Assembly (NCBI RefSeq): GCF_012910955.1
Contig: NZ_WTVQ01000017.1
Location: 1 to 64,000 of the forward strand
Source of the DNA: Aromatoleum diolicum
Lineage (GTDB): Bacteria; Pseudomonadota; Gammaproteobacteria; Burkholderiales; Rhodocyclaceae
Direction of reading: 5' to 3'
Length of the DNA stretch: 64,000 nucleotides
Part shown: positions 34,420-46,361 of the stretch, piece by piece
How the letters are laid out: each line of letters opens with the position of its first letter
Position numbering within the stretch: position 1 is the stretch's first letter
Made by a program: the position numbers and the translations under genes
The notes under the pieces: generated by a model
Databases searched by the model: none
Seen by the model: the letters and a program-made list of their open reading frames with translations, nothing else
Told to the model about the DNA's origin: nothing

Positions 34420-35217
34420 ATGCAGACCACCCTCGTCCGCTCGCGCTTTCGCCCGCCGCAGGTTTCGCGCCGCTTCATCCCGGTGTGGCGGCGCAATTTC
34501 CTCGTGTGGCGCAAGCTCGCGCTGCCCTCGGTGCTGGGCAACCTCGCCGACCCGATGATCTACCTGTTCGGTCTGGGCTTCGGCATCGGCATGCTGGTGC
34601 CGGAGATCGGCGGCGTGTCCTACATCAGCTTCCTCGCTGCCGGCATGGTGTGCTCGTCGACGATGAACAGCGCCTCCTTCGAGGTGCTGTACTCGGCATT
34701 CTCGCGCATGCACGTGCAGAAGACCTGGGACGCGATCATGAACGCCCCCGTCGATCTCGACGACATCGTGTTCGCCGAACTGGTGTGGGCGGCGTCGAAG
34801 GCGCTGCTGTCGGGCGTGGCGATCCTGCTCGTCATCGCCGCCTTCAGCCTCGTCGACACCCGCTACGTGCTGTGGCTGCTGCCGCTGATTTTCATCATCG
34901 GCGTGAGCTTCGGCGCGCTCGGTCTGGTGATGACCGCACTCGCCCCGAGTTACGACTTCTTCATGTACTACTTCACGCTGTTCATCACGCCGATGACGCT
35001 GGTGTCGGGTGTGTTCTTTCCCGCCGAACAACTGCCCGCCGCGGTGCAGTTCGTCGCATCGCTGCTGCCGCTGACGCACGCCGTCGAACTCGCGCGCCCG
35101 CTGCTGCTGGGCAAGGCGCCGGACGACATCGTGCTGCACCTGGGAGTGCTCGTCGCCTATGGCGCAGCCGGCTTCTGGATCGCGCTGGGCTTGACGCGGC
35201 GGCGACTGCTCGGCTGA
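34420..35217 (+). CDS. NodJ-type ABC transporter permease
   Basis: The 265-residue ABC-2 permease has six predicted helices and the NodJ-like stretch AGMVCSSTMNSASFEVLYSAFSRM. The family motif LTHAVELARPLLLG is near the C terminus. It forms an exporter with the preceding ATPase for an unknown hydrophobic or lipid-linked cargo. Confidence 0.92.
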   Translation: MQTTLVRSRFRPPQVSRRFIPVWRRNFLVWRKLALPSVLGNLADPMIYLFGLGFGIGMLVPEIGGVSYISFLAAGMVCSSTMNSASFEVLYSAFSRMHVQKTWDAIMNAPVDLDDIVFAELVWAASKALLSGVAILLVIAAFSLVDTRYVLWLLPLIFIIGVSFGALGLVMTALAPSYDFFMYYFTLFITPMTLVSGVFFPAEQLPAAVQFVASLLPLTHAVELARPLLLGKAPDDIVLHLGVLVAYGAAGFWIALGLTRRRLLG

Positions 35218-35616
35218 CAGCACCGCGCCGGCAGTCGCGCGCGCCATTTCCGCTCATGAAACTTGTTTGGTCCGGATGCCAGTCTTCACGGACGGGCTCC
35301 TGGCCGCGTTGCGCGCGATCCGTCCTGCTTCCGGATCCAGCCGACCCGCTGGTCCCCCTGGTCCCACGACGAACACTGCGGCGTCATGCAACGCTCGATA
35401 CCGCCAAATTGCAGACTGGTACAGTTCATCCATCGTGCGCGGGTTACCTGCAATCGGCGTGCCTTGCAGACGCATGGCGATGCCCCCCAACCTTCAGGGC
35501 AGTGAAAAATCAGCTACGGTGTCAGACCGCGGGGCGCAACGTGGAGTCGCGCAAGGGGCGTCTTCGACCACCGTCGGCGTAGTCGATGCAGTGCTCGAAC
35601 CAGTCTGGCGCCCCAC
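35218..35616. other. Gene-poor 399-base gap between convergent NodJ and hybrid-kinase genes
   Basis: No convincing gene or terminator. A minus-strand frame at 35254-35490 could encode 78 residues behind a G-rich stretch, but I recognise no domain. Local composition is less GC-biased than the flanks, so a degraded insertion is possible. Confidence 0.4.
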
Positions 35617-37272
35617 TCATTCTGTGGTGGAAGTGCGCTCCGGCGGCTCGCTGTCGCGCGGCCCGGCGAGCACAGCGATGGCATCGATCAGCCGGCTCGG
35701 TTCGACCGGCTTGGCGAGACACTCCTGAAATCCGGCTGCAGTGAACTCGCTACGATCCAGGTGGGTGATCGCGGTGACTGCGATCGCCGGAATGAAGGGC
35801 AGCGCGTCGATGGCACGGACCTTCGCCAACACGCTGAAACCATCTTCTCCTGGCATCGCGATGTCGAGCAGCATGACCGTCGGCACGAGGAAGGTATGGG
35901 TGTCGCGAAGCATTGCCAGCAGGTCGCTCCCCGCGGCGAAGGTGTGCACCCGCCCCCCCGCGCCGGTGACGACAAGTTCCGTCACATCACGCACATCGGG
36001 GTCATCATCGACCACCAGCACCAGAACGCCACGCAGCGTTGCGCCGGACTCCGGTGACCCGCTAGTCGCGATCGCCGGCACGACGCAAGACGTCGCGCCA
36101 CCGGTCGCGGGCAGTTCGACAGTGAAGGTGGTCCCGGCATCCGCGCCCGGACTCGCGACCCGCACTGTCCCGCCATGCAGTTCCACCAGATGGCGCACCA
36201 GCGCGAGACCGATCCCCAGGCCCCGGTAGCGGCGCGTCGTGGACGAATCGGCCTGGCTGAAGCGGTCGAAGACCAGGGGCAGGAAATCCGCATCGATGCC
36301 GACACCGGTATCCGATACCGACAGTTCGATCAGCTCGCCGAAGCGACGCAGATCGATTTCGACGACACCGCCCTCGGGCGTGAACTTGATCCCGTTCGAC
36401 AGCAGGTTGATGACCACCTGCTGCAGACGGCCCGGATCGCCGTCGGCGGTGACGACCGGATGATCGGAGGAAAACCGCAGGTCGATGTTCTTTGCGAGGG
36501 CGCTGGCACGCGAGACGTCGATGGCGGAATGGACGAGCTCCACCAGATTCACCGGTTGTCGCTCCAGAACCAGCTTGCCGCAGATGATCCGCGAAATGTC
36601 GAGCAGGTCGTCGATGAGGCGCGTCTGGTGCTCGACGTTGCGACGGATCGCCTGCGCCGACCGCGTCACCAGGATCGGGTCCGGATGCGGCGTGCCGGAA
36701 AGGAGATGGCTCCAGCCCTTCAAGGCATTGAGAGGCGAGCGCAGTTCGTGGGAGACAATCGCGAGGAACTCGTCCTTCGCACGGTTCGCCTGCTCGGCCT
36801 GCCCGCGCCGGCGGTGCTCGGTGACGAGCAACTGTTCGAGTTCCCCCTGCGCACGCTTGTGCGCGGTGATGTCGGTGGCAACCCCCACGACGCCGAGGAT
36901 CTTGCCTTGCTCGTCGCGCAGCGGCGACTTCGTGACCAGGAAGGTTTGCACGCCGGAAGCGGTCCGGTGGGACTGTTCGAGGGTGATCGGTTCGCCCCTC
37001 TCGAGCACGCGCTGGTCGCTCTCGCGGATCCGGCCGGCGTCGTCGGCCTCGCCGAACAGCACGATGTCGTTGCGCCCGAGGACCTGTTCAAGGCTCAGTT
37101 CCAGCGCGTGCAACACGGCCGGATTGGCCATCAGGATGCGGCCATCGCGATCCTTGGCGAAAATCAGTTCCGGGGTGCCGGCCGCAAAGATCTGTAGCAG
37201 CAAGGCACTTTCGCGCCAGCCCTCTTGCGCCCGATTCAGAGCCGCCGATTGCTGGTCCATTCGCTCATCCAT
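35617..37272 (-). CDS. Hybrid histidine kinase (PAS-HisKA-HATPase-REC)
   Basis: The 551-residue soluble kinase has a PAS domain (residues ~25-145), HisKA with phospho-acceptor H175 (VSHELRSPLN), HATPase (NLLSNGIKFTPEGG, GVGID, GLGIGLALVRHL) and a C-terminal receiver (LVVDDDPDVRD, acceptor Asp in VMLLDIAMPGEDG). No membrane helix is seen, so it probably senses a cytoplasmic signal. It starts 52 bases after the sigma-54 activator and is surely in the same operon. The receiver may regulate or relay phosphate to that activator. Start 37272 or 37260; neither has a strong ribosome site. Confidence 0.9.
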   Translation of the reverse strand: MDERMDQQSAALNRAQEGWRESALLLQIFAAGTPELIFAKDRDGRILMANPAVLHALELSLEQVLGRNDIVLFGEADDAGRIRESDQRVLERGEPITLEQSHRTASGVQTFLVTKSPLRDEQGKILGVVGVATDITAHKRAQGELEQLLVTEHRRRGQAEQANRAKDEFLAIVSHELRSPLNALKGWSHLLSGTPHPDPILVTRSAQAIRRNVEHQTRLIDDLLDISRIICGKLVLERQPVNLVELVHSAIDVSRASALAKNIDLRFSSDHPVVTADGDPGRLQQVVINLLSNGIKFTPEGGVVEIDLRRFGELIELSVSDTGVGIDADFLPLVFDRFSQADSSTTRRYRGLGIGLALVRHLVELHGGTVRVASPGADAGTTFTVELPATGGATSCVVPAIATSGSPESGATLRGVLVLVVDDDPDVRDVTELVVTGAGGRVHTFAAGSDLLAMLRDTHTFLVPTVMLLDIAMPGEDGFSVLAKVRAIDALPFIPAIAVTAITHLDRSEFTAAGFQECLAKPVEPSRLIDAIAVLAGPRDSEPPERTSTTE

Positions 37273-37324
37273 TCGCGCCGGCGCGACATCGCTGCCACAC
37301 CCGTCTCCCTTCGCCCCCCGGCGC

Positions 37325-38761
37325 TCACGGCGGAGGGGCTGCAGGGCCTTCTTCGGTCCACCCGATCGGATCCGCTGCGTCGTCGCCGAATGCCTCCTCC
37401 GCTTCCGCTTCGTCGGCGGCATCGGCATTACCGCCGTGGTAGACGGCAAGGCGGTTGTATAGCGTCTTCAGGCTGATGCCCAGGATTTCAGCGGCTTTGC
37501 GCTTGACGTTGCCACAGTCGAGCAGCGTGGCTTCGATCAGTCGCCGGTTGACGTCTTCAAGGGTGCTGCCGATGCGCACCGTCAGCAGCGAAGTCGGCAT
37601 CGGCTGGACGAAGGTTTCGGGTGCCAGCGCGACGTCGATGACGTCGTCGGCGAGAATGAAGACGCGCTGCACGTAGTTCTTCAGCTCACGCACGTTGCCC
37701 GGCCAGGAATGGGCGTAGAGGGCGGCGATGGCGGCCGGCGAGAAATGCTTGTCGGTGTGTTCCTCGGCATTGAGCCGGGCGAGGAAGTGCTGCGCCAGCA
37801 GTTCGAGATCGGTGCCGCGCTCGCGCAGCGGCGGCAACTGGATCGGGAACACGTTGAGCCGGTGATAGAGATCCTCGCGCAGGCGTCCGTCGGCCACTGC
37901 CTGCTCGATCGGGCGGTTGGTGGCGGCGATGAGACGCACATCGGCGGCGATGGGTTCGTTGGTGCCGACGCGCATGAAGGTGCCGGTCTCCAGCACGCGC
38001 AGCAGCTTCACCTGCAGTTCGGGCGGGGTCTCGGTGACTTCGTCGAGGAACAGGGTGCCGCCGTGCGCACGCTCGAAAAATCCGCGGTGCTGCCGGTCGG
38101 CCCCGGTGAAGCTGCCCTTCTCATGGCCGAACAGCTCGCTTTCGATGAGCTGCGGCGAGACCGCCCCGCAGTTGAGTGGCAGGAAGGGTTGGCGTTTGCG
38201 TCGCGAGAGATCGTGGATGGTCTGGGCCGCGACTTCCTTGCCGGTTCCGCTTTCGCCGATCAGCAGCACGGTCGCCGAGGTGGGCGCCACGCGCGTCAGT
38301 TGGTCATACAGACGGTGCATGACCGGTGAGGCGCCGAGAAACTGCCCGAAGTGGCCGAGCTGGCGCAACTCCTTGCGCAGTTCGCCGATTTCCTCGCGGA
38401 AGTGTTCCGGTTTCGGCACCCGCTGGAGAATGCCGCGCAGGCGCTCGACGTCAATCGGCTTGACCAGGTAATCGGTGGCACCCGCGCGCAGCGCCTCGAT
38501 GGCGCTCTCCATGCTGGCGTGACCGGTGACGACCACAAACTCGGTCGATCCGCCCGATTCGAGCGACTCCACCAGTTCGATACCCTGGCCATCGGGCAAC
38601 ATCAGATCCGTCAACACCACATCCGGCTGGGAACGGCTCAACACGGTGCGGGCCGCGCGCAGGGAATCGGCGCTCGCCACGGTGAAGCCCTCGGCGCGAA
38701 CGAATTCCCTCATCCATTCGATCGCCTCGGGATCGTCGTCAACCAGCAGTACCTGCGGCAT
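37325..38761 (-). CDS. Sigma-54-dependent response regulator (NtrC family)
   Basis: The 478-residue activator has an N-terminal receiver (VLLVDDDPEA; Asp in VVLTDLMLPDG) and a central AAA+ domain with Walker A GESGTGKE and the sigma-54 contact loop GSFTGAD. A C-terminal Fis-type helix-turn-helix (CGNVKRKAAEILGISLKTLYNRL) follows, then an acidic tail. The loop has Ser where most family members have Ala (GAFTGA); Ser occurs in some active proteins. The start at 38761 follows GGGAGGGGAC. It faces the rpoN gene across the PAS gene, pointing to a dedicated sigma-54 circuit. Confidence 0.94.
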   Translation of the reverse strand: MPQVLLVDDDPEAIEWMREFVRAEGFTVASADSLRAARTVLSRSQPDVVLTDLMLPDGQGIELVESLESGGSTEFVVVTGHASMESAIEALRAGATDYLVKPIDVERLRGILQRVPKPEHFREEIGELRKELRQLGHFGQFLGASPVMHRLYDQLTRVAPTSATVLLIGESGTGKEVAAQTIHDLSRRKRQPFLPLNCGAVSPQLIESELFGHEKGSFTGADRQHRGFFERAHGGTLFLDEVTETPPELQVKLLRVLETGTFMRVGTNEPIAADVRLIAATNRPIEQAVADGRLREDLYHRLNVFPIQLPPLRERGTDLELLAQHFLARLNAEEHTDKHFSPAAIAALYAHSWPGNVRELKNYVQRVFILADDVIDVALAPETFVQPMPTSLLTVRIGSTLEDVNRRLIEATLLDCGNVKRKAAEILGISLKTLYNRLAVYHGGNADAADEAEAEEAFGDDAADPIGWTEEGPAAPPP

Positions 38762-38775
38762 GTCCCCTCCCGTCG

Positions 38776-38805
38776 TGCTCACCATCGTAGCTGCGATGGT
38801 GAGCA
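38776..38805. promoter_or_regulatory. 30-base near-perfect palindrome before the sigma-54 activator gene
   Basis: TGCTCACCATCG (38776-38787) and CGATGGTGAGCA (38794-38805) are perfect 12-bp arms around TAGCTG. The element ends 6 bases before the activator's ribosome site. It could be an autoregulatory operator or an RNA hairpin controlling translation. Confidence 0.7.
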
Positions 38806-38888
38806 TTCCTACCTATTCATTGTAACTTTTACATACAACCCCCTCCACGGGGCGAGGGTTCCCCCCGATCCTTCCGTCAGGGCGGGCA

Positions 38889-40130
38889 CTAGCGTCGCGC
38901 CTGATCGGTGACGTCCTCCGTCACGCCGAGAACACGCATCACGCGGCCGCTGGAATCGCGGCTGACGACCCCGCGGTCGCGCATCCGCCGCGTTCCGCGC
39001 GGGGTACGCACGCGGTACTCATGGTCGAAGCGACCGCTGGCAACCTTGCCCGCCAGGACCTGCCCGACGCGCTCCCGGTCATCCGGATGCACCGCCCGCA
39101 ACCATTTTTCCGGATCCGGCTGATCGCCGGACTGGTCTTCACGCAGACCGAACAGCCGGCGGTACGCCGGGCTGACGTAAAGCCACTTGTGGCGGACCGG
39201 ATCGAGCACCCAGAAGATTTCGCTGATGGTCTCGGCCAGTTGGCGAAAGCGCTCCTCGCTTTCGCGCAACGCTGCTTCGGCGCGTTTGGACGGCGTGATG
39301 TCGATCATCACACCGAAGAGGCTCAAGGGATTTTCGAAGTCGTCGCAGTGGCACTCGGCCGAGGCCCGTACCCAGCGTTCCTCGCCACCCGGCAACAGGA
39401 TGCGAAACTCCACTTCGAACCTGCCGCCCACCTCCACCGCCCGCTCGAACAGGAGCGTGACCCGCGGACGATCGAGCGCATGAACCGTGGCGAGGAACCC
39501 TTTGTAAGTCGGCTGCGACTCCGCCGGCCAGGCGAACAAGTGGCGTGATTCGTCGCTCCAGCTCAGCACACCGGTGCCAAACTCATACGTCCACCAGCCC
39601 AACCGGGCGCTGCGCACGATCAGGGCGAAGCGCTCGGCCTGCTCCCGCAGGGCCTGTTCGAGGTGCCGACGCTCGATGAGGCTCTCGGGTGCCTGCTCGA
39701 GCACGCCCGCGAGCACGGAAGGCGCGTCCGTCTCGCCCGCCGCGTCGGCCGTGATCACGGTTCCCAGAATTGCGGCCGGACGGTCCGCCGCGTCACGTGT
39801 GAACACGGCCACCTGCAGGCGCACCGCACGCCAGCCTCCATCGGCATGGCGCAGCTGCAAGGTCGCGCCGGCCGAGTCGCCGTTGCGCAGCGCGCTCACC
39901 CTTTGAATCAGCGCCTCCAACCGCGTGCGGTCATCTTGATGGACCAGCGACCGCAGCGCCGCAGCATCCATCGCAGCGAGATACTCCTTGGGATACCCGA
40001 GCATGGAGGTAAAGCCATTCGATCCGAGAGGGATGAGGTGTCCGCCCTCGGCATCAAAGATCCCCACTCCGCCGGGTACCGCGGCGGCGGCGCGCTCCAG
40101 TGCGTGAAGAACTGCATCGCTTGCGAACAT
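38889..40130 (-). CDS. Triple-PAS protein without output domain
   Basis: The 413-residue protein consists of three PAS modules (about residues 10-140, 165-285 and 290-410). The last two are PAS_3-like with clear PAC motifs (VEFRILLPGGEERWVRA, HEYRVRTPRGTRRMRD). No kinase, GGDEF or HTH domain follows; translation stops at TAG right after the third PAC motif. It may act as a soluble sensor partner for the nearby hybrid kinase, or be a truncated kinase. It lies between the activator and rpoN, divergent from rpoN. Confidence 0.85.
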   Translation of the reverse strand: MFASDAVLHALERAAAAVPGGVGIFDAEGGHLIPLGSNGFTSMLGYPKEYLAAMDAAALRSLVHQDDRTRLEALIQRVSALRNGDSAGATLQLRHADGGWRAVRLQVAVFTRDAADRPAAILGTVITADAAGETDAPSVLAGVLEQAPESLIERRHLEQALREQAERFALIVRSARLGWWTYEFGTGVLSWSDESRHLFAWPAESQPTYKGFLATVHALDRPRVTLLFERAVEVGGRFEVEFRILLPGGEERWVRASAECHCDDFENPLSLFGVMIDITPSKRAEAALRESEERFRQLAETISEIFWVLDPVRHKWLYVSPAYRRLFGLREDQSGDQPDPEKWLRAVHPDDRERVGQVLAGKVASGRFDHEYRVRTPRGTRRMRDRGVVSRDSSGRVMRVLGVTEDVTDQARR

Positions 40131-40501
40131 GGTTGGAACGGCCTCTCGAGTCTTGAAAGTTCAAATCGTCCACTTGCTACCGGGTCCTCCGAGTAAGCCG
40201 GGCCACTGGCCCGACAGCGGATTGGCTCGTCGTACCTGATTTGCCAACCCGCATCCAAGCCTTCGTCCGCGGCGCAGGCGGCGTCCTCTATTTCTCAGCA
40301 ATTGATGTTCCCGGCGCCCGGCGGTCGGGCGGTTCGGCGGGCCGGCAATTCTTACTCGCGGCTTGTAAGACTTTCCCGCGCGTCTCACCCCGTCTGTCAC
40401 CACGTGGCCGCATTGCAGGGCTTGCATCACTGGGAATGGATCTTGCGCCGTCAAGGGAAGTGGATAGACCGGCCTGCAAACGGCACGCCCAGGAGGACGT
40501 C
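40131..40501. promoter_or_regulatory. Divergent control region between the PAS gene and rpoN
   Basis: This 371-base gap holds no gene. On the minus strand a sigma-54-like element GGGAAC-N5-TTGCT (40297-40312) points to the PAS gene. Upstream of it (40351-40377) is a dyad CTTAC-N9-GTAAG followed by ACTTTCCC that resembles the motifs upstream of the csbD/dgcZ and PRC promoters. A good ribosome site (AGGAGG) serves rpoN at 40492. Confidence 0.45.
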
Positions 40502-41980
40502 ATGAGTCTCGGATTGGAGCTTCGGCTGCGCCACCACCTTGCGATCACGCCACAACTTCAGCAGGCCCTGCGCCTGCTGCAGCTGTCGTCGCCGGAATTC
40601 GCGCAGGAGGTCGAGCAGGCGCTCGCCACCAACCCCTTCCTTGAAGAGGACGACGACTCGCCCCGACACGGCACGCCACCGGCTCCCCCCGCCGAGGCAC
40701 CGCCGCACGAGGACGCGGCTGCCGCTGCCCGCGCGGACGTCGAAGCGGACGCTACCGCCGACGGCGGATGGCAGGCCATCGGCACGGACGGCGCGCGTAG
40801 CGGCATGGCAAGTGACAAGGACGACGACTGGACCGAATGGTCTCCCGCGCCGGTGAGCCTGCACGAGAACCTTCGCCAGCAGTTGATGCTCTCGCCGATG
40901 AGCGACCGTGACCGCGCGCTGGCCTACCTGCTGATCGACGAGATCGGCGATACGGGTTATCTCGAAACGTCCCTCGAGGAGCTGGCGGCGCAGGTGGCGC
41001 CCGAAGACCAGGTCGAGCCGGAGGAACTGGCGGCGCTGCTCAAGCTCGTGCAGCAGCTCGACCCGCCGGGGATCGCCGCCCGCTCGCTGCAGGAATGCCT
41101 GTTGCTGCAACTTGCAGCGGTGCCGCAGGACCACCCCGGCCGGGCGGTCGCGCTGCAACTCGTCGGCGAGCATTTCGAACTGCTGGCGCGGCGTGAATTC
41201 ACCCATCTGCAACAGCTCACGGGCTGCAACGAGGCGGCCCTGCACACTGCGCGCGCCCTGATCCGCTGCCTCGACCCCAAGCCGGGCCTGCTGCTGGGGC
41301 CGGACGACACACGCTATGTCGTCCCCGACGTTCTCGTCAGCCATGTGCGTGGCCGCTGGGTGGCGGCCCTGAACCCGGCAGCGCAGCCGCGCGTGCGCAT
41401 CAACCGCACTTATGCCGAGATCGCCGCCTGCCGCCACGGCGGCGAATCGTCGTTCGGCCGCCAGTTGCAGGAGGCCCGCTGGCTGCTGCGTCACGTCGAA
41501 CAGCGCTTCACCACCATCCAGCGCGTCGCCGATGCCATCGTGGCGCGCCAGAGCGCCTTCTTCGAATACGGCGAGGCAGCCATGCGGCCACTGGTCCTGA
41601 AGGACATCGCCGACGAACTGGGCCTGCATGAATCGACCGTTTGCCGCGTCACCAACGACAAGTACATGGCCACCCCGCGCGGCCTGTTCGAATTCAAGTA
41701 TTTCTTTTCGCGCCAGCTCGTGATGGACGACGGCGGGGCCTGCTCCGGCACGGCCATCCGCGCCGTACTGAAGGCGCTGATCGCTGCCGAAGACCCGAAG
41801 GATCCGCTGTCCGACGCGCAGCTCACGCGCCTGCTGGCCGAACAGGGCCTGCGCCTGGCGCGGCGCACCGTCACCAAGTACCGTGGCCTGATGCATGTGC
41901 CGAGCGTCGAACTGCGGCGCGTTGCGGCGCGGCGCCTACAAGTGCGGGTTGCCAGCGCCGAACAACCCGATTTCGCCTGA
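40502..41980 (+). CDS. rpoN: RNA polymerase sigma-54 factor, probable second copy
   Basis: The 492-residue sigma-54 is complete. The Gln/Leu-rich activator-interacting region is at residues 1-50 (RHHLAITPQLQQALRLLQLS). An acidic linker (~50-115), the core-binding domain, an HTH (ESTVCRVTNDKYMATPRGLFEFKYFFSR region) and the RpoN box ARRTVTKYRG (residues ~453-462; usual ARRTVAKYRE) follow. The DNA-reading residues are kept, so recognition of TGGCAC-N5-TTGCA is expected. The usual betaproteobacterial neighbours lptB, hpf and ptsN are absent and an activator, kinase and PAS gene flank it. I therefore infer a paralog dedicated to this locus. Confidence 0.94.
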   Translation: MSLGLELRLRHHLAITPQLQQALRLLQLSSPEFAQEVEQALATNPFLEEDDDSPRHGTPPAPPAEAPPHEDAAAAARADVEADATADGGWQAIGTDGARSGMASDKDDDWTEWSPAPVSLHENLRQQLMLSPMSDRDRALAYLLIDEIGDTGYLETSLEELAAQVAPEDQVEPEELAALLKLVQQLDPPGIAARSLQECLLLQLAAVPQDHPGRAVALQLVGEHFELLARREFTHLQQLTGCNEAALHTARALIRCLDPKPGLLLGPDDTRYVVPDVLVSHVRGRWVAALNPAAQPRVRINRTYAEIAACRHGGESSFGRQLQEARWLLRHVEQRFTTIQRVADAIVARQSAFFEYGEAAMRPLVLKDIADELGLHESTVCRVTNDKYMATPRGLFEFKYFFSRQLVMDDGGACSGTAIRAVLKALIAAEDPKDPLSDAQLTRLLAEQGLRLARRTVTKYRGLMHVPSVELRRVAARRLQVRVASAEQPDFA

Positions 41981-42015
41981 TCGCGCCGCGATGTTCGCCA
42001 GACATCGCCGCCGCG

Positions 42016-42031
42016 GGGAACACGCCTTGCA
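42016..42031 (+). promoter_or_regulatory. Candidate sigma-54 promoter for the ChaB gene
   Basis: GGGAAC-N5-TTGCA has the invariant GG and GC ten bases apart and a perfect -12 element; the -24 element has two mismatches to TGGCAC. It lies ~90 bases before the ATG at 42122. Confidence 0.45.
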
Positions 42032-42121
42032 ACCCGGTGCACGGCGCGCAAGCGTCGGCGCGGTCGAAATGCACCGACCGAATCGCACTGACTTGCACCG
42101 CGCAACGACAAGGAGGAAATC

Positions 42122-42511
42122 ATGCCCAAGCACGGAGTCAATCTACCGCGGACACTTCAGCGTTCCCCCGCCAAGGCGCAGCGAACCTATGCGGAGGTGT
42201 TGAAGAACGCCGAGGAACAGTACGGAAGCGGCGAACGGGTGGCCAGGACGGCCTATGCCGCACTCAAGCACAGCTTCGAGAAGGTCGGAGATCATTGGGA
42301 GTCGAAAAAGCACCCCGGACCTTCCGATTCCCGCTCGCAGCAAACAAGCGCGGACAAGCGCCGCGGTCGCGGCGAGACCTTTGGCGGCGTCGATGTCGAA
42401 GGTCACACCCGCCAGGAACTCTACGCCCGTGCACGGGCCCTGGACATTCCGCGACGCTCCACCATGAACAAGGAAGAGCTGGCGCTGGCGATCAGCAAGA
42501 AGCAGGATTGA
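42122..42511 (+). CDS. ChaB-domain protein
   Basis: The 129-residue protein has an N-terminal ChaB domain (LPRTLQRSPAKAQRTYAEVLKNAEEQYG, AYAALKHSFEKVGDHW) and a C-terminal Rho-N/SAP-like helical segment (TRQELYARARALDIPRRSTMNKEELALAI), with a charged linker between. ChaB-family proteins are small and poorly understood; this fusion to a nucleic-acid-binding-like segment is common in environmental Proteobacteria. It has a strong ribosome site (AAGGAGG). It is the first gene of the putative sigma-54 stress cluster. Confidence 0.88.
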   Translation: MPKHGVNLPRTLQRSPAKAQRTYAEVLKNAEEQYGSGERVARTAYAALKHSFEKVGDHWESKKHPGPSDSRSQQTSADKRRGRGETFGGVDVEGHTRQELYARARALDIPRRSTMNKEELALAISKKQD

Positions 42512-42615
42512 GCGGGTGACGAAAGGAATCCGGAGTGTGGCCGGGGGCCGATGTCGCCGGCTCTGCGCGGTTCGTCGACGCGCAGATGACGACCGGCGCG
42601 ACGCCGGCAGGCAAC

Positions 42616-42745
42616 TTTGACGTCCGGTGTGTAATTTCTTCCCTGCACCGATGGGCGCCCAGCCGCAAGCGGGATCCGCGGCCGAAGGGCCCGCCCGGCA
42701 GCAGCGGCGCAACGTGTTCCCCCTGCGCCGGGCACGACGATTGCC
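42616..42745 (+). promoter_or_regulatory. Sigma-54 promoter and upstream activator motif for the PRC-barrel gene
   Basis: GGGCAC-GACGA-TTGCC at 42730-42745 fits the sigma-54 -24/-12 consensus at all but two positions. Its first 15 bases are identical to the element before the DUF1328 gene at 43545. About 85 bases upstream, TTTGAC...TGTGTAATTTCTTCCCTG (42616-42645) parallels a motif upstream of csbD. The promoter is ~195 bases before the PRC ATG; the rest of the 427-base gap shows no gene. Confidence 0.65.
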
Positions 42746-42938
42746 CCAGCACTGGAGCGCCCAGCACGCCGAAAACCGGCTGCATGCAGTATCCAGGACG
42801 GCGCTCGGCGCCTGGTCGTCCATCGCCCTTTGCCGGCGACGGCAGGATCGTCCAGGCAGTAGCGGACGACTTGAAGGGCAGTGGCTGCTGTTCAGCACCG
42901 GCGCCACGCCCATCCATCAACCCGCAGGAGATACAGCA

Positions 42939-43379
42939 ATGGCAAGCGTACATTCTGGTAGCACCGCCCGGGGCGAAACGCGCATCATCGGCACCCAGCA
43001 CGAGCCCGGTTCCGGCCCCGGTCCGGAAATCATGGCCGCGGACACCCTCGAAGGCGATGACGTGGTGAACCATCAGGGCGAAGACCTCGGCATGATCAAG
43101 GAAATCATGATCGACGTCGCGGCCGGCCGGGTCGCCTATGCGGTATTGGCTTCGGGCGGCTTCCTCGGTATTGGCGACAAGTATTTCGCGATCCCGTGGA
43201 GCGCGCTGACCCTGGACGCCGACAACAAGCGTTTCGTCCTCGACGTCGACAAGGAGCAGCTGAAAAACGCCCCGGGCTTCGACAAGGACCACTGGCCGAC
43301 GATGGCCGACCCCGCCTGGGCCACCGAAGTGCATCGCTACTACGGTCAGCCGACTTACTGGTCGCCACCGGAGCTATGA
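42939..43379 (+). CDS. PRC-barrel domain protein
   Basis: The 146-residue protein has one PRC-barrel domain (MAADTLEGDDVVNHQGEDLGMIKEIMID, then GGFLGIGDKYFAIPWSAL) and a C-terminal DKDHWPTMADPAWATEVHRYYG tail. This is the usual form of the stress-associated PRC proteins found near CsbD and other small stress genes. PRC barrels are thought to mediate protein contacts. The ATG follows AGGAG; a far longer upstream reading is unsupported. Confidence 0.9.
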   Translation: MASVHSGSTARGETRIIGTQHEPGSGPGPEIMAADTLEGDDVVNHQGEDLGMIKEIMIDVAAGRVAYAVLASGGFLGIGDKYFAIPWSALTLDADNKRFVLDVDKEQLKNAPGFDKDHWPTMADPAWATEVHRYYGQPTYWSPPEL

Positions 43380-43420
43380 CCGGCTCAAACTGCGCCCACG
43401 GCGCAGTTTGAGGCTCACTT

Positions 43421-43459
43421 CGCTCACCCCGGGCAGCGCATCGGGGTGAGCGTTTTTTT
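43421..43459 (+). terminator. Rho-independent terminator after the PRC gene
   Basis: An 11-bp stem (CGCTCACCCCG / CGGGGTGAGCG) with a 10-base loop is followed by seven T. A smaller hairpin (AAACTGCG/CGCAGTTT) precedes it at 43387-43409. Confidence 0.92.
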
Positions 43460-43544
43460 CGTTCGTTCTGCCATACCCGACCGCCAGCTGCGTACCAGCC
43501 CTCTCGGCCGGCGGAATCAGCGGTGATGGTGTGCGGAGATTCCT

Positions 43545-43560
43545 GGGCACGACGATTGCA
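43545..43560 (+). promoter_or_regulatory. Sigma-54 promoter of the first DUF1328 gene
   Basis: GGGCAC-GACGA-TTGCA matches the consensus TGGCAC-N5-TTGCA with one mismatch. The expected start point is ~27 bases before the ATG at 43599. Fifteen bases are identical to the site at 42730. Confidence 0.75.
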
Positions 43561-43598
43561 GTGGCCATTGGCACCACATCAGTCAATGGAGGTGTGCC

Positions 43599-43760
43599 AT
43601 GTTGCACTACGCTGCAGTGTTTCTGGTGATTGCGCTGGTCGCGGCGCTACTGGGCTTTGGCGGCATCGCCGCCGGTGCCGCGGAGATCGGCAAGATCTTG
43701 TTCTACATCTTCCTGGTGATCGCACTGGTGTCATTGGTTGTCGGACTTCTCCGACGATGA
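43599..43760 (+). CDS. DUF1328 small membrane protein
   Basis: The 53-residue protein has two hydrophobic helices ([47 protein letters not shown] region) ending in RR. This is the typical form of the DUF1328/YtjA family of tiny inner-membrane proteins, often seen among stress-induced genes. It is preceded by GGAGG and by a sigma-54-type promoter. Function is unknown. A second family member lies at 46188. Confidence 0.9.
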
Positions 43761-43901
43761 AGCGGTCCTGATGAACCCGAAGCGTACCAAGGACGATGGA
43801 AGCCACTCCGCGCCGGGCCAGGGATCCGGAAGTCAAGGCCTGTCAGGTCGCTGTCGAAAACTGCCGCGGCGTGGTTCAGCGGCCGGGGATCAGTCCCTTC
43901 C

Positions 43902-44840
43902 TCATCGCCGGCCTGCGGCGGCAGGGTTTGCTGACCGCCGTTTGGGGGTGCGCTCCGCAAGCTCGACGCGGTTTCGGCCCCCTTGCTTGGCCCGGTAGAG
44001 CGCCGCGTCGGCATCCGCAATCAAACGCTTGATGCTGCGTCCGGACGCAAATTCGGACACTCCGATCGACAAGGTCACCGTCGCCACGACGTTGCCGTCA
44101 CGAATTTCGGCCGCACCGATACGTTCCCGCAGGCGATCCAGCACGCTCCGCGCCTCCTCCCCGGAAGTCTCCGGCAGCAGCACCAGGAACTCCTCTCCGC
44201 CATAGCGAAAGACCTGGTCATAGGGGCGCAGACCGTCCGTGAGCCGAGCGGCCAGTTCGGCCAGCACATGGTCGCCGAAGGGGTGCCCGTGCGTGTCATT
44301 GACCGCCTTGAAGTGATCGATGTCGGCCATGGCCACGGTGAACGGAATTTTTCCGCGGCGCGCGCGGGCGAGTTCTTCCTTCAATTCGCGCTCCATGACA
44401 TGGCGCGTAAATACGCCGGTGACCTCGTCCACTTCGATAAGCGTGGCGGCGGTATTCGAATGCAGGCGATCGGCGAAGTCCTGGAATGCTTCGACGGCGC
44501 GCAGTAGACGGGCGAGCTTCGCGGGTTTCAGCGTGTCCGCGCGAGATCGGGCAAGGCAATCCTCGGCGAGCGCATGCACGGCGCGGTGGCGCGCGAGCAG
44601 GCTGCGGTACGCTCCGCTGGCCTCGATCTCGGGACCATATCCGCCCGCCACGGCCTCTTCAAAACGACATGCCAGCGTGGAATCGAAACCCGCATCGGAA
44701 GCGTCGCGCGAATCGGGAAAGCGCAAGCTGAACATCACGCTCATGAGATGTTCCAGATGCGCCTTCAACCCGCGCCGGAGATCTCTCAGGAAGTGATCCA
44801 GTTGCAGGTTGCTGACTTCGCTGGGGAGGCTGTCTGCCAT
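43902..44840 (-). CDS. Zinc-sensing diguanylate cyclase, DgcZ-like (CZB-GGDEF)
   Basis: The 312-residue protein has an N-terminal CZB zinc-binding domain with H28, C58, H85 and H89. Their spacing (30, 27, 4) equals that of the zinc ligands of E. coli DgcZ. The C-terminal GGDEF domain has an intact active site (RYGGEEF) and an inhibitory RxxD site (RPYD) five residues before it. It would make c-di-GMP under control of zinc, affecting adhesion and biofilm. The start at 44840 is preferred because conservation begins there; no strong ribosome site is visible. A sigma-54-type promoter lies upstream on the same strand. Confidence 0.88.
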   Translation of the reverse strand: MADSLPSEVSNLQLDHFLRDLRRGLKAHLEHLMSVMFSLRFPDSRDASDAGFDSTLACRFEEAVAGGYGPEIEASGAYRSLLARHRAVHALAEDCLARSRADTLKPAKLARLLRAVEAFQDFADRLHSNTAATLIEVDEVTGVFTRHVMERELKEELARARRGKIPFTVAMADIDHFKAVNDTHGHPFGDHVLAELAARLTDGLRPYDQVFRYGGEEFLVLLPETSGEEARSVLDRLRERIGAAEIRDGNVVATVTLSIGVSEFASGRSIKRLIADADAALYRAKQGGRNRVELAERTPKRRSANPAAAGRR

Positions 44841-45013
44841 CACATGAACTCGGTTTGTCGGGCGCGCGGAAGTCCGTTTCGCAATCCACCACGCACCGAT
44901 CCAGCTCGGGGCACTGCGCGCATGGCGCAACTGAGGCTGGGCGGGACGGTCCGCAGCGCCCGCCCTCACGGTCAGGGCAAGACCGTACGAGCGAGCATAC
45001 ACCCTGCCCCGCG

Positions 45014-45029
45014 AGCAAGCCGTGTGCCC
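45014..45029 (-). promoter_or_regulatory. Candidate sigma-54 promoter for the diguanylate cyclase
   Basis: Read on the minus strand, GGGCAC-N5-TTGCT matches the consensus with one -24 mismatch. It shares the GGGCAC form of the PRC and DUF1328 sites and lies ~175 bases before the cyclase ATG. Confidence 0.6.
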
Positions 45030-45081
45030 CGCGCCGTCGCCGGGCGCCGAACCTGGCCTCCATCCGTGCCACCTTGAAATA

Positions 45082-45112
45082 TTTACATCGCAATGTGTAA
45101 TTCCTTGCCCTG
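45082..45112. promoter_or_regulatory. Shared upstream activator motif between dgcZ-like and csbD genes
   Basis: A TTACA-N8-TGTAA dyad (45083-45100) runs into TTCCTTGCCCTG. It lies 50 bases upstream of the csbD sigma-54 promoter and ~55 bases upstream of the opposite cyclase promoter. A closely similar sequence lies upstream of the PRC promoter. A binding site for the NtrC-family activator is the simplest reading. Confidence 0.5.
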
Positions 45113-45161
45113 ATGAACCGTGGAGTCACGCAAATACCTGATCTTTCGGGACGTGCACCGG

Positions 45162-45177
45162 TGGCACAGGGTTTGCA
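45162..45177 (+). promoter_or_regulatory. Perfect sigma-54 promoter of the csbD operon
   Basis: TGGCAC-AGGGT-TTGCA matches the sigma-54 -24/-12 consensus at every fixed position. It lies 57 bases before the csbD ATG. This is the strongest single promoter call in the window. Confidence 0.88.
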
Positions 45178-45234
45178 CGTCAAGTGCGGGTCGGCACTTC
45201 GCGCCGCATCCAACCTGACTGAAAGGAGAGCGAA

Positions 45235-45456
45235 ATGAACTGGGATCGTATCGAAGGGAACTGGAAGCAGTTCAAGGGGAAAGTCAAGGAAGAATGGGGG
45301 AAGCTGACCGACGACGAACTCGATCGGATGGCGGGGCAGCGCACGCAACTCAGCGGCAAGCTGCAGGAGCGTTACGGCATCGCGCGAGACGAAGCCGAAC
45401 GTCGGATCGACGAATGGCTCGACCAGCAGGCCGACCAGATCGACCGGACCCACTAA
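45235..45456 (+). CDS. CsbD-family stress protein
   Basis: The 73-residue hydrophilic protein has the CsbD signature (MNWDRIEGNWKQFKGKVKEEWGKLTDDEL) and a short helical C-terminal part. CsbD proteins are general-stress markers in many bacteria with no known biochemical activity. It follows AAGGAGAG and a perfect sigma-54 promoter. The next gene begins 18 bases later, so the two form an operon. Confidence 0.95.
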   Translation: MNWDRIEGNWKQFKGKVKEEWGKLTDDELDRMAGQRTQLSGKLQERYGIARDEAERRIDEWLDQQADQIDRTH

Positions 45457-45474
45457 GGATCAGGAGATGACGTC

Positions 45475-45930
45475 ATGATGAACCTGAAGATCACCACTGT
45501 CGCCGCAGCGATCGTGTTCGCGTGCTCGAGTGCCATCGCGACCGACGCCATGACAAAGGACGAAGTCAAGGCCGAGAAGGAACGGATCGAGTTGGACTAC
45601 AAGACGGCCAAGAAGGCGTGCGACGCCATGACGGCCAACGCGAAGGACATCTGCGTGGCCGAGGCCAAGGGCCAGGAGAAGATCGCGAAGGCGGAACTTG
45701 CGGCGAAGGAAAAGAGCACGCCCAAGTCGCAGTACGAAGTTACGATGGCCAGGGCCGATGCGCAATACGATGTCGCGAAGGAGCGCTGCGACGACATGAA
45801 GGGCGCCGAGAAGGACGTCTGCGTCAAGGACGCCAAGGCGGTCCATTCCCGCGCCAAGGAAGATGCCAAGGCCGCGCTCAAGACGAGCGACGCGCGCCGC
45901 GAGGCGGGCAGCGGCGTCGCACAAGCTTGA
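45475..45930 (+). CDS. Lysine-rich periplasmic protein with paired Cys repeats
   Basis: The 151-residue protein has a signal peptide (cleavage near SSAIA, residue ~22) and a highly charged helical mature part. It contains two copies of a motif, KKACDAMTANAKDICVAEAK and KERCDDMKGAEKDVCVKDAK, each with two cysteines ten residues apart that could form disulfides through DsbA. No named family is recognised; similar proteins occur beside CsbD genes in Betaproteobacteria. It belongs to the csbD operon. A structural or metal-binding envelope stress role is only inference. Confidence 0.8.
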   Translation: MMNLKITTVAAAIVFACSSAIATDAMTKDEVKAEKERIELDYKTAKKACDAMTANAKDICVAEAKGQEKIAKAELAAKEKSTPKSQYEVTMARADAQYDVAKERCDDMKGAEKDVCVKDAKAVHSRAKEDAKAALKTSDARREAGSGVAQA

Positions 45931-46187
45931 TGCCGCGTACCGGCCCACGCGCGAACGCCGCGACGGCATGGCTGGCGAGACAAGTAAATGCGTCAGTGAT
46001 GCAAGTCTGCGGCACGCGCCGCAGCAACGGCCTGCTTCGACACTCGGCCGGGCGCGCCCGCCCGGCTGGTGCCGGCGTGTTGGCCTAAGCCGCTGAACGG
46101 CTTCCACGCCGACTTGTCCACTGCCATGATCGGCAGTTGGCCGCGCGGCGATCGCAGCCGCCGGTCCCACGCACCGGAGGCATGCAC

Positions 46188-46361
46188 ATGCTGAAATGGG
46201 CCATCTTTTTCTTCCTGATCTCGCTGGTCGCCGGGATCCTGGGCTTCACCAATGTCGCCTCGGGTGCTGCGGCAATCTCCAAGGTGCTGTTCTTCATCGC
46301 GCTGACGCTCTTCCTGATCGTCCTGGTGTTCGGCGTGCTGCTCGGAGTTCTGGTGTTCTGA
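46188..46361 (+). CDS. Second DUF1328 small membrane protein
   Basis: The 57-residue protein has two membrane helices ([20 protein letters not shown]..., ...[21 protein letters not shown]). It is a DUF1328/YtjA family member distinct from the copy at 43599. The ATG at 46188 has GGAGG at 7 bases; the in-frame ATG at 46182 is too close. No clear sigma-54 element precedes it; it may be read from the csbD operon 257 bases upstream. Confidence 0.88.

Follow-up and report, generated by a model that had tools for sequence, protein, structure and literature searches.

The 64,000-nucleotide stretch of Aromatoleum diolicum DNA analysed here (the window) carries a paralogous sigma-54 gene, rpoN2, next to signalling and stress-type genes, and in our judgement this module quite probably represents, in compact form, a sigma-54 regulon of stress-type genes that is conserved mainly among the Burkholderiales. 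Paralogy, co-occurrence, clustering, and the enrichment of promoters and of a palindromic upstream site (UAS) were each computed directly. Since relatives retain much of the gene set, the stress circuit looks real, and it appears to be so far undescribed.

Gene content of the module

A domain search of the window located all of the genes named in an earlier note on this DNA (Table 1), confirming both that rpoN lies beside genes for a PAS-only protein, an NtrC-family activator and a hybrid kinase, and that chaB, PRC-barrel, DUF1328, csbD and lysine-rich protein genes adjoin it. The rpoN2 product belongs to the sigma-54 family by TIGR02395 (432 bits against a cut-off of 277). PRK12469 was the best NCBIfam model for this protein and for the five RpoN2 proteins of relatives that were tested, and was rejected as an RpoN2 marker; the RpoN1 of this genome also exceeds its cut-off. 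The activator, with a DVVLTD receiver motif, GESGTGKE (Walker A) and GSFTGA in the AAA+ domain, and a Fis-type helix-turn-helix, is of the NtrC type (group I), the second position of GAFTGA being S rather than A. Homologues of the hybrid kinase, at 582-730 bits, were found in the islands of genomes G100, G137, G026, G130 and G003. In L005 (Azoarcus sp. BE2011), a homologue of the three-PAS protein (206 bits) is encoded ~2 kb away from rpoN2, and none above 41 bits was detected in the remaining islands compared. No Rfam match was found between positions 35000 and 46500.

Among the stress-type genes, chaB has one homologue per island in 5/5 family islands, and PRC homologues (176-225 bits) occur in the stretches of 19 of the 41 other genomes or records compared, including Burkholderia multivorans. 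CsbD matches of 27-102 bits were obtained in nine order-level stretches and homologues of the Lys/Ala-rich protein, at 56-81 bits, in G245, G264, G284 and G260; neither protein had a match in the five family islands. The Lys/Ala-rich gene is perhaps co-transcribed with csbD. The cyclase had been described as a CZB-GGDEF protein, and while its GGDEF domain is present, the CZB match (E=0.15) falls below the cut-off; of the NCBIfam models, PRK09894, representing the DgcZ type, matches best over the full length (212 bits, cut-off 256). Judging from its intact GGEEF site, this enzyme would raise c-di-GMP. Upstream of DUF1328b we found no -24/-12 site (best score 5.1) and no UAS, so its membership in the regulon is unsupported.

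Table 1. Genes, predicted -24/-12 sites and UAS copies of the module (window positions)
Feature	Position	Strand	Basis or remark
Hybrid histidine kinase, PAS-HisKA-HATPase-REC	35617..37272	-	Pfam; last gene of PAS-activator-kinase unit; start codon called by our own script
NtrC-family activator, REC-AAA+-Fis	37325..38761	-	Pfam and motifs
Three-PAS protein without output domain	38889..40130	-	Pfam; first gene of divergent unit
-24/-12 site GGGAACATCAATTGCT, PAS-activator-kinase unit	40297..40312	-	Score 11.0
UAS 1 GGCAATTCTTACTCGCGGCTTGTAAGACTTTCC	40344..40376	.	Between divergent rpoN2 and PAS-activator-kinase promoters
Degenerate -24/-12 site GGGAATGGATCTTGCG, rpoN2	40432..40447	+	Score 6.3; position of relatives' strong rpoN2 promoter
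rpoN2, paralogous sigma-54	40502..41980	+	All three sigma-54 Pfam domains above cut-off; RpoN box ARRTVTKYR
-24/-12 site GGGAACACGCCTTGCA, before chaB	42016..42031	+	Score 12.3
ChaB-family protein, C-terminal Rho_N match	42122..42511	+	Pfam
UAS 2 GGCAACTTTGACGTCCGGTGTGTAATTTCTTCC	42610..42642	.	Before PRC gene
-24/-12 site GGGCACGACGATTGCC, before PRC gene	42730..42745	+	Score 11.9
PRC-barrel protein	42939..43379	+	Pfam
-24/-12 site GGGCACGACGATTGCA, before DUF1328a	43545..43560	+	Score 15.6
DUF1328a, small membrane-type protein	43599..43760	+	Pfam/NCBIfam
Diguanylate cyclase, GGEEF and RxxD I-site, possibly DgcZ-like N-terminus	43902..44840	-	Domain search, motifs
-24/-12 site GGGCACACGGCTTGCT, before cyclase gene	45014..45029	-	Score 14.3
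UAS 3 TGAAATATTTACATCGCAATGTGTAATTCCTTGC	45075..45108	.	10-bp spacer; between cyclase and csbD promoters
Near-perfect -24/-12 site TGGCACAGGGTTTGCA, before csbD	45162..45177	+	Score 19.3
CsbD-like protein	45235..45456	+	Pfam
Lys/Ala-rich protein	45475..45930	+	No Pfam family; signal-like N-terminus read by eye
DUF1328b	46188..46361	+	Domain search

Sigma-54-type promoters and a shared palindrome

Candidate -24/-12 sites were scored with a matrix built from generally known sigma-54 promoter frequencies rather than from a retrieved compilation. With the module divided into eight transcription units, and a correctly oriented site scoring at least 11 sought within 350 bp upstream, six units, all but rpoN2 and DUF1328b, carried such a site compared to 14/399 control genes (binomial p about 5e-8), bearing out the proposal of sigma-54-type promoters, five of which had been claimed. 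Across the window and five islands, 32 strong, well-placed sites were found in 447 kb (counting G137, a near-copy of G100), compared to a single one in 437 kb of control DNA. The control regions of G003 and G130 sit on island contigs; region L135 shares 1.6 kb with the G003 island, and region L136 contains CsbD and DUF1328. Chance promoters were rejected on these two comparisons. Although rpoN2 in the window has no good -24 element upstream, sites scoring at least 11 precede rpoN2 at 33/37 loci, as opposed to 7/55 rpoN1 entries (three genes, G062, G147 and G112, are counted twice, none of them among the seven positives). Across 38 stretches representing B. multivorans and other families, sites were counted without control DNA from those genomes: 61 were well placed and 41 were not, and eight of these stretches lack a well-placed site scoring at least 13. 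The -24/-12 elements of the island promoters are ordinary, except that G is frequent at -26 (33/54).

Counts of 7- and 8-mers and 4-mer dyads uncovered a palindrome, GGnAAnnnTTAC-N8-10-GTAAnnnTTnCC, exact 5- and 6-mer palindrome searches having yielded nothing useful. It lies 31-119 bp before 21/54 island promoters (G137 excluded), and three copies occur in the module. Matches of at least 12/18 within 200 bp were found at 21/54 island promoters compared to 6/370 control genes, a count in which island limits were set by eye and some of the data had also served to define the UAS; 33/54 have no UAS of at least 12. In held-out regions, a UAS was present at 18/156 promoters compared to 13/648 in-region genes without a site, and before 6/6 further rpoN2 genes, equivalent copies also preceding rpoN2 in relatives. 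UAS 1 is the sole match without mismatches in seven genomes searched. In this genome, matches with at most two mismatches (9-bp spacer) are confined to the module, and G044, a genome of the same genus without RpoN2, has none by the same search. The promoters before chaB and DUF1328a are present but no UAS above background was found there. The palindrome is probably the activator's site. The earlier note mentions neither this shared palindrome nor the fact that relatives have larger islands.

The second rpoN and its activator in relatives

This genome carries two rpoN genes, the window copy and a housekeeping copy, so the claim of paralogy stands and a single-rpoN genome is rejected. In a tree of RpoN sequences, the window copy groups with a clade that we name RpoN2, apart from housekeeping RpoN1. 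All 36 RpoN2 rows fall on one side of one branch, with an SH-aLRT of 93, just below the program's mark of 95. The tree was built by a quick method from 90 of the 116 extracted sequences, including three long rows and omitting every second family RpoN1, near-copies and one fragment; its order-level RpoN2 rows were selected because they lie near the activator or are the extra copy in a genome that carries it.

RpoN2 and the activator occur in the same 8/17 genus genomes (Fisher 4e-5), and among 150 family genomes RpoN2 (at least 68% identity) and the activator (at least 76%) were found in the same six. At least two rpoN genes are present in 26/34 activator-bearing genomes outside the family and 29/38 overall, compared to 1/20 activator-negative genomes (p 1e-7), the latter being the first listed rather than a random draw and the single positive being counted by a weak match. 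Linkage is not universal: the second rpoN lies on another contig in 4/26 (G290, G380, G397 and G527), 1.7 Mb separate RpoN2 from the activator in G542, of the same genus, and in G066 a second rpoN match was obtained without any activator match at the cut-off applied. The activator was found in 5/369 genomes of a class-level draw, this one included, and in 71 plasmid records, with rpoN on the same record in at least five among the best 40 of 95 rows. Conservation of the gene set was upheld for rpoN2 with the activator and nearby predicted targets but not for the exact composition, which varies between islands, as with the unmatched CsbD and Lys-rich proteins. Order-level genomes were mostly viewed as a single 20-kb stretch, and absences there therefore mean little.

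The idea of a dedicated sigma-54 is borne out insofar as a paralogous RpoN2 is kept with the activator and predicted targets, but RpoN2 is not strictly needed, given that 8/34 genomes with the activator outside the family contain a single rpoN, and G260, one of these eight, keeps both the -24/-12 site and the palindrome before csbD. Together with the ordinary -24/-12 elements of the islands, G at -26 excepted, these genomes are consistent with a regulon defined by the activator alone, in which RpoN1 and RpoN2 would have identical promoter specificity, either could read the regulon, and RpoN2 would top up the sigma-54 pool or shield the regulon from competition. This is a serious contender, if a somewhat doubtful one, given that no more than about 31 kb separates the activator from a second rpoN in 22/34 of the genomes outside the family and that the RpoN2 rows form one clade, in which T or S replaces the A of RpoN1 in the RpoN box in 29/36 rows, hinting at some specialisation.

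A nested cascade, in which rpoN2 is transcribed by RpoN1 with the activator before a late set of stress genes passes to RpoN2, is more doubtful still. The site and UAS preceding rpoN2 would suit it, as would, should its gene belong to the same clade, Ralstonia solanacearum, in which rpoN2 (RSp1671) is 44% identical to housekeeping rpoN1, requires rpoN1 for its expression, is induced in minimal medium and has a role called enigmatic (PMC4371752). However, a -24/-12 site cannot distinguish RpoN1 from RpoN2 input, and that of rpoN2 in the window is degenerate. It is highly improbable that ordinary stress-type genes simply lie near a spare rpoN with promoter-like sites arising by chance: sigma-54-like sites can indeed be found within genes and in control DNA, and islands vary in their gene sets, but the tree, the co-occurrence, the site enrichment over control DNA and the UAS tests on held-out regions all argue against it.

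Proposed circuit and known systems

In the conserved stress-type regulon that we favour, the hybrid kinase, and perhaps the PAS protein, would control phosphorylation of the activator, which would then bind the palindrome and open -24/-12 promoters held by sigma-54 RNA polymerase. RpoN2, probably helped by RpoN1, would drive ChaB, PRC, DUF1328, CsbD, the Lys-rich protein and the diguanylate cyclase. Given that one copy of the palindrome separates rpoN2 from the PAS-activator-kinase unit, induction could raise both RpoN2 and the activator, a double positive feedback.

The families behind predicted promoters include BON, PRC, CsbD, ferritin-like and DUF1328 proteins (116 genes from 25 hand-picked loci, with no control set scanned). 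Such predicted targets fit the general-stress type and would be controlled by one sigma factor, with stress, for example osmotic, drying or starvation, as the presumed inducer. The sigma-S, sigma-B and EcfG stress responses target CsbD, PRC, BON, ferritin-like, trehalose and glycogen genes; these factors are of other sigma classes, and sigma-54 requires an ATPase activator. The target proteins are similar, the class of sigma factor differs, and rpoS coexists with rpoN2 here: it was detected above the curated cut-off in this genome and in 7/10 others tested, with no match above cut-off in G187, G244 and G245. The presence of rpoS led us to reject the proposed replacement of sigma-S in this organism. 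RpoN2 and its activator could, tentatively, be an old sigma-54-based general stress response of the Burkholderiales, self-amplifying through the shared palindrome and operating beside sigma-S, perhaps in its place in lineages such as those three.

A search of one literature collection listed no publication that, judged by title and abstract, describes a system in which an rpoN paralogue is kept together with an activator of its own and adjacent predicted sigma-54 targets, in agreement with the claim that no such system had been described. In betaproteobacteria, the PEP-CTERM system PrsK/PrsR/RpoN pairs an NtrC-type response regulator with sigma-54. The window activator is likewise NtrC-type, but its identification as PrsR was rejected (TIGR02915, 354 bits against a cut-off of 502.6). 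Rhodobacter/Cereibacter species have several rpoN copies with dedicated partner activators, serving nitrogen fixation and flagella rather than stress genes. Beta-proteobacteria that have several replicons, many Burkholderiales among them, are described as generally carrying two rpoN copies (PMC4371752). As in the module, R. solanacearum rpoN2 is a second copy beside a housekeeping rpoN1, but in the parts of that paper covered it is connected neither with an activator or upstream site nor with a regulon or stress (PMC4371752). No Ralstonia appears among the plasmid matches listed (best 40 of 95 rows). A B. multivorans plasmid carries RpoN2, the activator, a second, shorter activator, DUF1328, PRC, BON, DUF4142, treY/treZ and Ku/LigD; we assume it to be the Burkholderia cepacia complex replicon pC3, reportedly credited with a stress role in the title of a 2014 paper by Agnoli et al., though no link between pC3 and RpoN2 came up.

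For the second rpoN of the Burkholderiales, these results supply an activator as partner, a candidate site on the DNA, a set of targets and a function that can be tested. If the proposed regulon is real, a sigma-54 route, with its ATP- and signal-driven activator, would join the known ways of switching on general stress genes, and the regulon may explain why stress genes are gathered into islands, both chromosomal and megaplasmid-borne.

A second sigma-54 gene and a co-occurring activator

The window contig is part of a 5.15-Mb genome in which a Sigma54_DBD search recovered two rpoN genes, confirming an earlier note's view that the window gene is a paralogue rather than the sole copy. The window RpoN shares 48% identity with the housekeeping RpoN. 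A quick maximum-likelihood tree was built from 90 sequences (36 RpoN2, 37 RpoN1 and 17 outside sequences); all 36 RpoN2-labelled sequences lie on one side of a single branch (SH-aLRT 93), and the window copy groups with RpoN2, apart from RpoN1. The grouping of the order-level RpoN2 rows is informative because they were picked by nearness to the activator or as the second copy in an activator-bearing genome; the family rows were partly picked by similarity, and three RpoN2 rows have long branches. At one position of the RpoN box, T or S is present in 29/36 RpoN2 sequences and A in 52/52 RpoN1 rows.

RpoN2 is found in 8 of the 17 genomes of the genus, and the activator in the identical eight. 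The distance between the two genes is 1.7 kb in the window, 15-22 kb in six other genomes and 1.7 Mb in the genus member G542. Within the family (150 genomes), RpoN2 with ≥68% identity occurs in six genomes, and the activator with ≥76% identity in the same six; G013, G075 and G135 carry more distant versions of both, and G043 has the activator at 56% identity with a single rpoN. Another genome, G066, has two rpoN matches and no activator at E≤1e-90; its second rpoN copy is left out of the 90-sequence tree. Across the order, the activator is present in 36/399 genomes, 34 of them outside the family, and 26 of these 34 have at least two rpoN genes, compared to one rpoN in 19/20 activator-negative genomes (the twentieth also has a weak second match). 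The second rpoN shares the activator's contig in 22 of the 26, at a distance of at most ~31 kb; in G290, G380, G397 and G527 it is on a different contig. In a class-level draw the activator was rare (5/369 genomes, including A. diolicum), and of 71 plasmid records with the activator, at least five, among the matches listed, also hold an rpoN match on the same record. The co-occurrence of this rpoN type with the activator, a check proposed in the earlier note, held in the genus and in most of the activator-bearing order genomes.

The window RpoN2 shows 68-69% identity to the copies of its congeners G100, G137 and L006 and does not group with them, and the RpoN1 of A. diolicum is 91% identical to that of G044. 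This difference in identity, together with presence in 8/17 genus genomes, suggests either transfer of RpoN2 or sorting of old copies.

Predicted promoters and an upstream palindrome

Features of the module and of a related plasmid locus
Feature	Location	Strand	Remarks
Hybrid kinase, NtrC-type activator and three-PAS protein genes	within 35.6-46.4 kb	minus	divergent from rpoN
NtrC-type activator	37325-38761	minus	
Window rpoN2	40502-41980		
ChaB, PRC-barrel, DUF1328, diguanylate cyclase, CsbD, Lys-rich protein and second DUF1328 genes	up to 46.4 kb		after rpoN
Strong -24/-12 site, AGGCACGCCGATTGCA	35449-35464	minus	score 15.4; points away from module into 400-bp gap
Second, shorter NtrC-like protein (L229, Burkholderia multivorans plasmid)	39442-40485		annotated; adjoins main activator

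The PAS, activator and kinase genes look like a single transcription unit, given their shared reading direction and short gaps. Candidate -24/-12 sites were scored with a matrix of generic sigma-54 promoter frequencies. Well-placed intergenic sites scoring ≥13 numbered 32 in the 446.8 kb of the window and five family islands (of which G100 and G137 are closely related), compared to one in 437.0 kb of control DNA from 22 regions; at ≥11 the counts were 73 and 16. Within the module, a predicted site ≥11 precedes 6/8 units, compared to 14/399 control genes, in line with the sigma-54-type promoters proposed earlier. The picture is weaker in 38 stretches from other families and B. multivorans, where, without control DNA from the same genomes, 61 sites ≥13 were well placed and 41 were not, and eight stretches had no well-placed site. 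Although the matrix favours T at -26, the base found in sigma-54 promoters elsewhere, G is commonest in the Rhodocyclaceae island promoters (33/54); in the other stretches, G occurs in 47 and T in 55 of 156.

A site ≥11 lies upstream of rpoN2 in 33/37 loci and of rpoN1 in 7/55 entries, three genes being entered twice in the latter. The site before the window rpoN2 is degenerate, which disfavours strong self-amplification here. Downstream of the strong site beside the module there is just a doubtful 59-codon frame with no Pfam match, and no UAS above background was found nearby; a small RNA from this promoter is possible.

The UAS, of general form GGnAAnnnTTAC-N8-10-GTAAnnnTTnCC, emerged from words enriched ahead of island promoters, the palindrome having been first noticed before rpoN2 in six genomes. 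Matches of ≥12/18 within 200 bp upstream occur at 21/54 island promoters and 6/370 control genes, a partly circular test. Less circular are the counts from other families and distant relatives (18/156 promoters compared to 13/648 same-region genes without a site) and the UAS before 6/6 further rpoN2 genes, matched by none of 300 shuffles each, although three of these genes are from close relatives of genomes used earlier and L010 also enters the 18/156 test. With a 9-bp spacer and ≤3 mismatches, the A. diolicum genome holds 10 matches compared to five for the reversed pattern, and seven pooled genomes hold 50 compared to 26. At ≤2 mismatches, the two A. diolicum matches are both inside the module, and a genome search of G044, which is without RpoN2, gave none. 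A third module UAS has a 10-bp spacer; no UAS was found upstream of chaB or DUF1328a.

Gene content of the islands

In the five family relatives, rpoN2 lies ~15-30 kb from the activator. The earlier note expected the stress genes to be kept together, and this was true in part: homologues of the window kinase, PRC and ChaB are present in 5/5 islands and DUF1328 in 4/5, but neither CsbD nor the Lys-rich protein had a match in any of the five. ChaB and PRC had no match in 20 control regions, one of which, itself on an island contig, contains CsbD and DUF1328; CsbD also matches in nine order-level stretches. Read from sequence, the neighbours of rpoN2 and the activator in the G100 island resemble glycogen and trehalose enzymes, a mechanosensitive channel and DUF4142-like, phospholipase-like and ferritin-like proteins, together with ChaB. 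The B. multivorans plasmid carries treZ, treY, Ku, LigD, DUF1328, rpoN2, CBS, PRC, DUF4142, BON and the activator. Among 116 genes behind predicted promoters at 25 hand-picked loci, scanned without a control set, the leading Pfam families were sigma-54 (10), BON (8) and PRC (6), followed by short-chain dehydrogenases, CsbD and DUF421 (4 each); CBS, ferritin and DUF1328 were among those with 3 each.

The shorter NtrC-like protein also adjoins the main activator in stretches of G013, G075, G245, G265, G284, G303, G454 and others; in G013 and G075 the match begins past the receiver, and G135 has an NtrC-like match without a receiver near rpoN2. This protein may work on the same promoters as the main activator. 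In L230, from a Paraburkholderia sabiae plasmid, the activator has a BREX defence locus and a gene for a diguanylate cyclase close by, and the incomplete PLSDB gene tables show no rpoN within the 37-kb stretch.

Proposed mechanism and relation to known systems

Most simply, the module is read as a two-component system, which would act via a sigma-54 activator both on the promoters of stress-type genes and on the genes of the system itself, a single palindrome probably serving both rpoN2 and the activator/kinase unit. Here we infer sensor input, phosphotransfer from the kinase, UAS binding and induction by stress. The absence of CsbD from the family islands, G542, G066 and the unlinked copies bear on the gene list and linkage, not on the promoter and UAS evidence, and so leave the odds of this mechanism unchanged. 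That the sigma-54 is dedicated, as previously proposed, is partly supported: RpoN2 tracks the activator, but eight of the 34 activator-bearing genomes (G170, G206, G260, G287, G297, G303, G392 and G454) have a single rpoN. Such genomes argue that RpoN1 can serve the predicted stress promoters, and RpoN2 may not be alone in reading them.

In a study of Ralstonia solanacearum (PMC4371752), expression of rpoN2 requires rpoN1 and no role for rpoN2 is known. This dependence would fit a sigma-54 promoter before rpoN2, the Ralstonia gene being a possible member of the clade. Single parts of the system are already known; their joint use in a stress regulon appears to be new, as the earlier note held. 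No paper describing an RpoN2 stress regulon was found by title and abstract in a largely open-access literature, with subscription journals mostly outside it.

The proposal that this system replaces sigma-S does not hold for A. diolicum, which is among the 8/11 genomes tested with rpoS above the cut-off; here, the RpoN2 system would be additional to sigma-S. Three RpoN2 genomes, G187, G244 and G245, gave no RpoS match above the curated cut-off, and in lineages such as these sigma-S has perhaps been replaced by the RpoN2 system.
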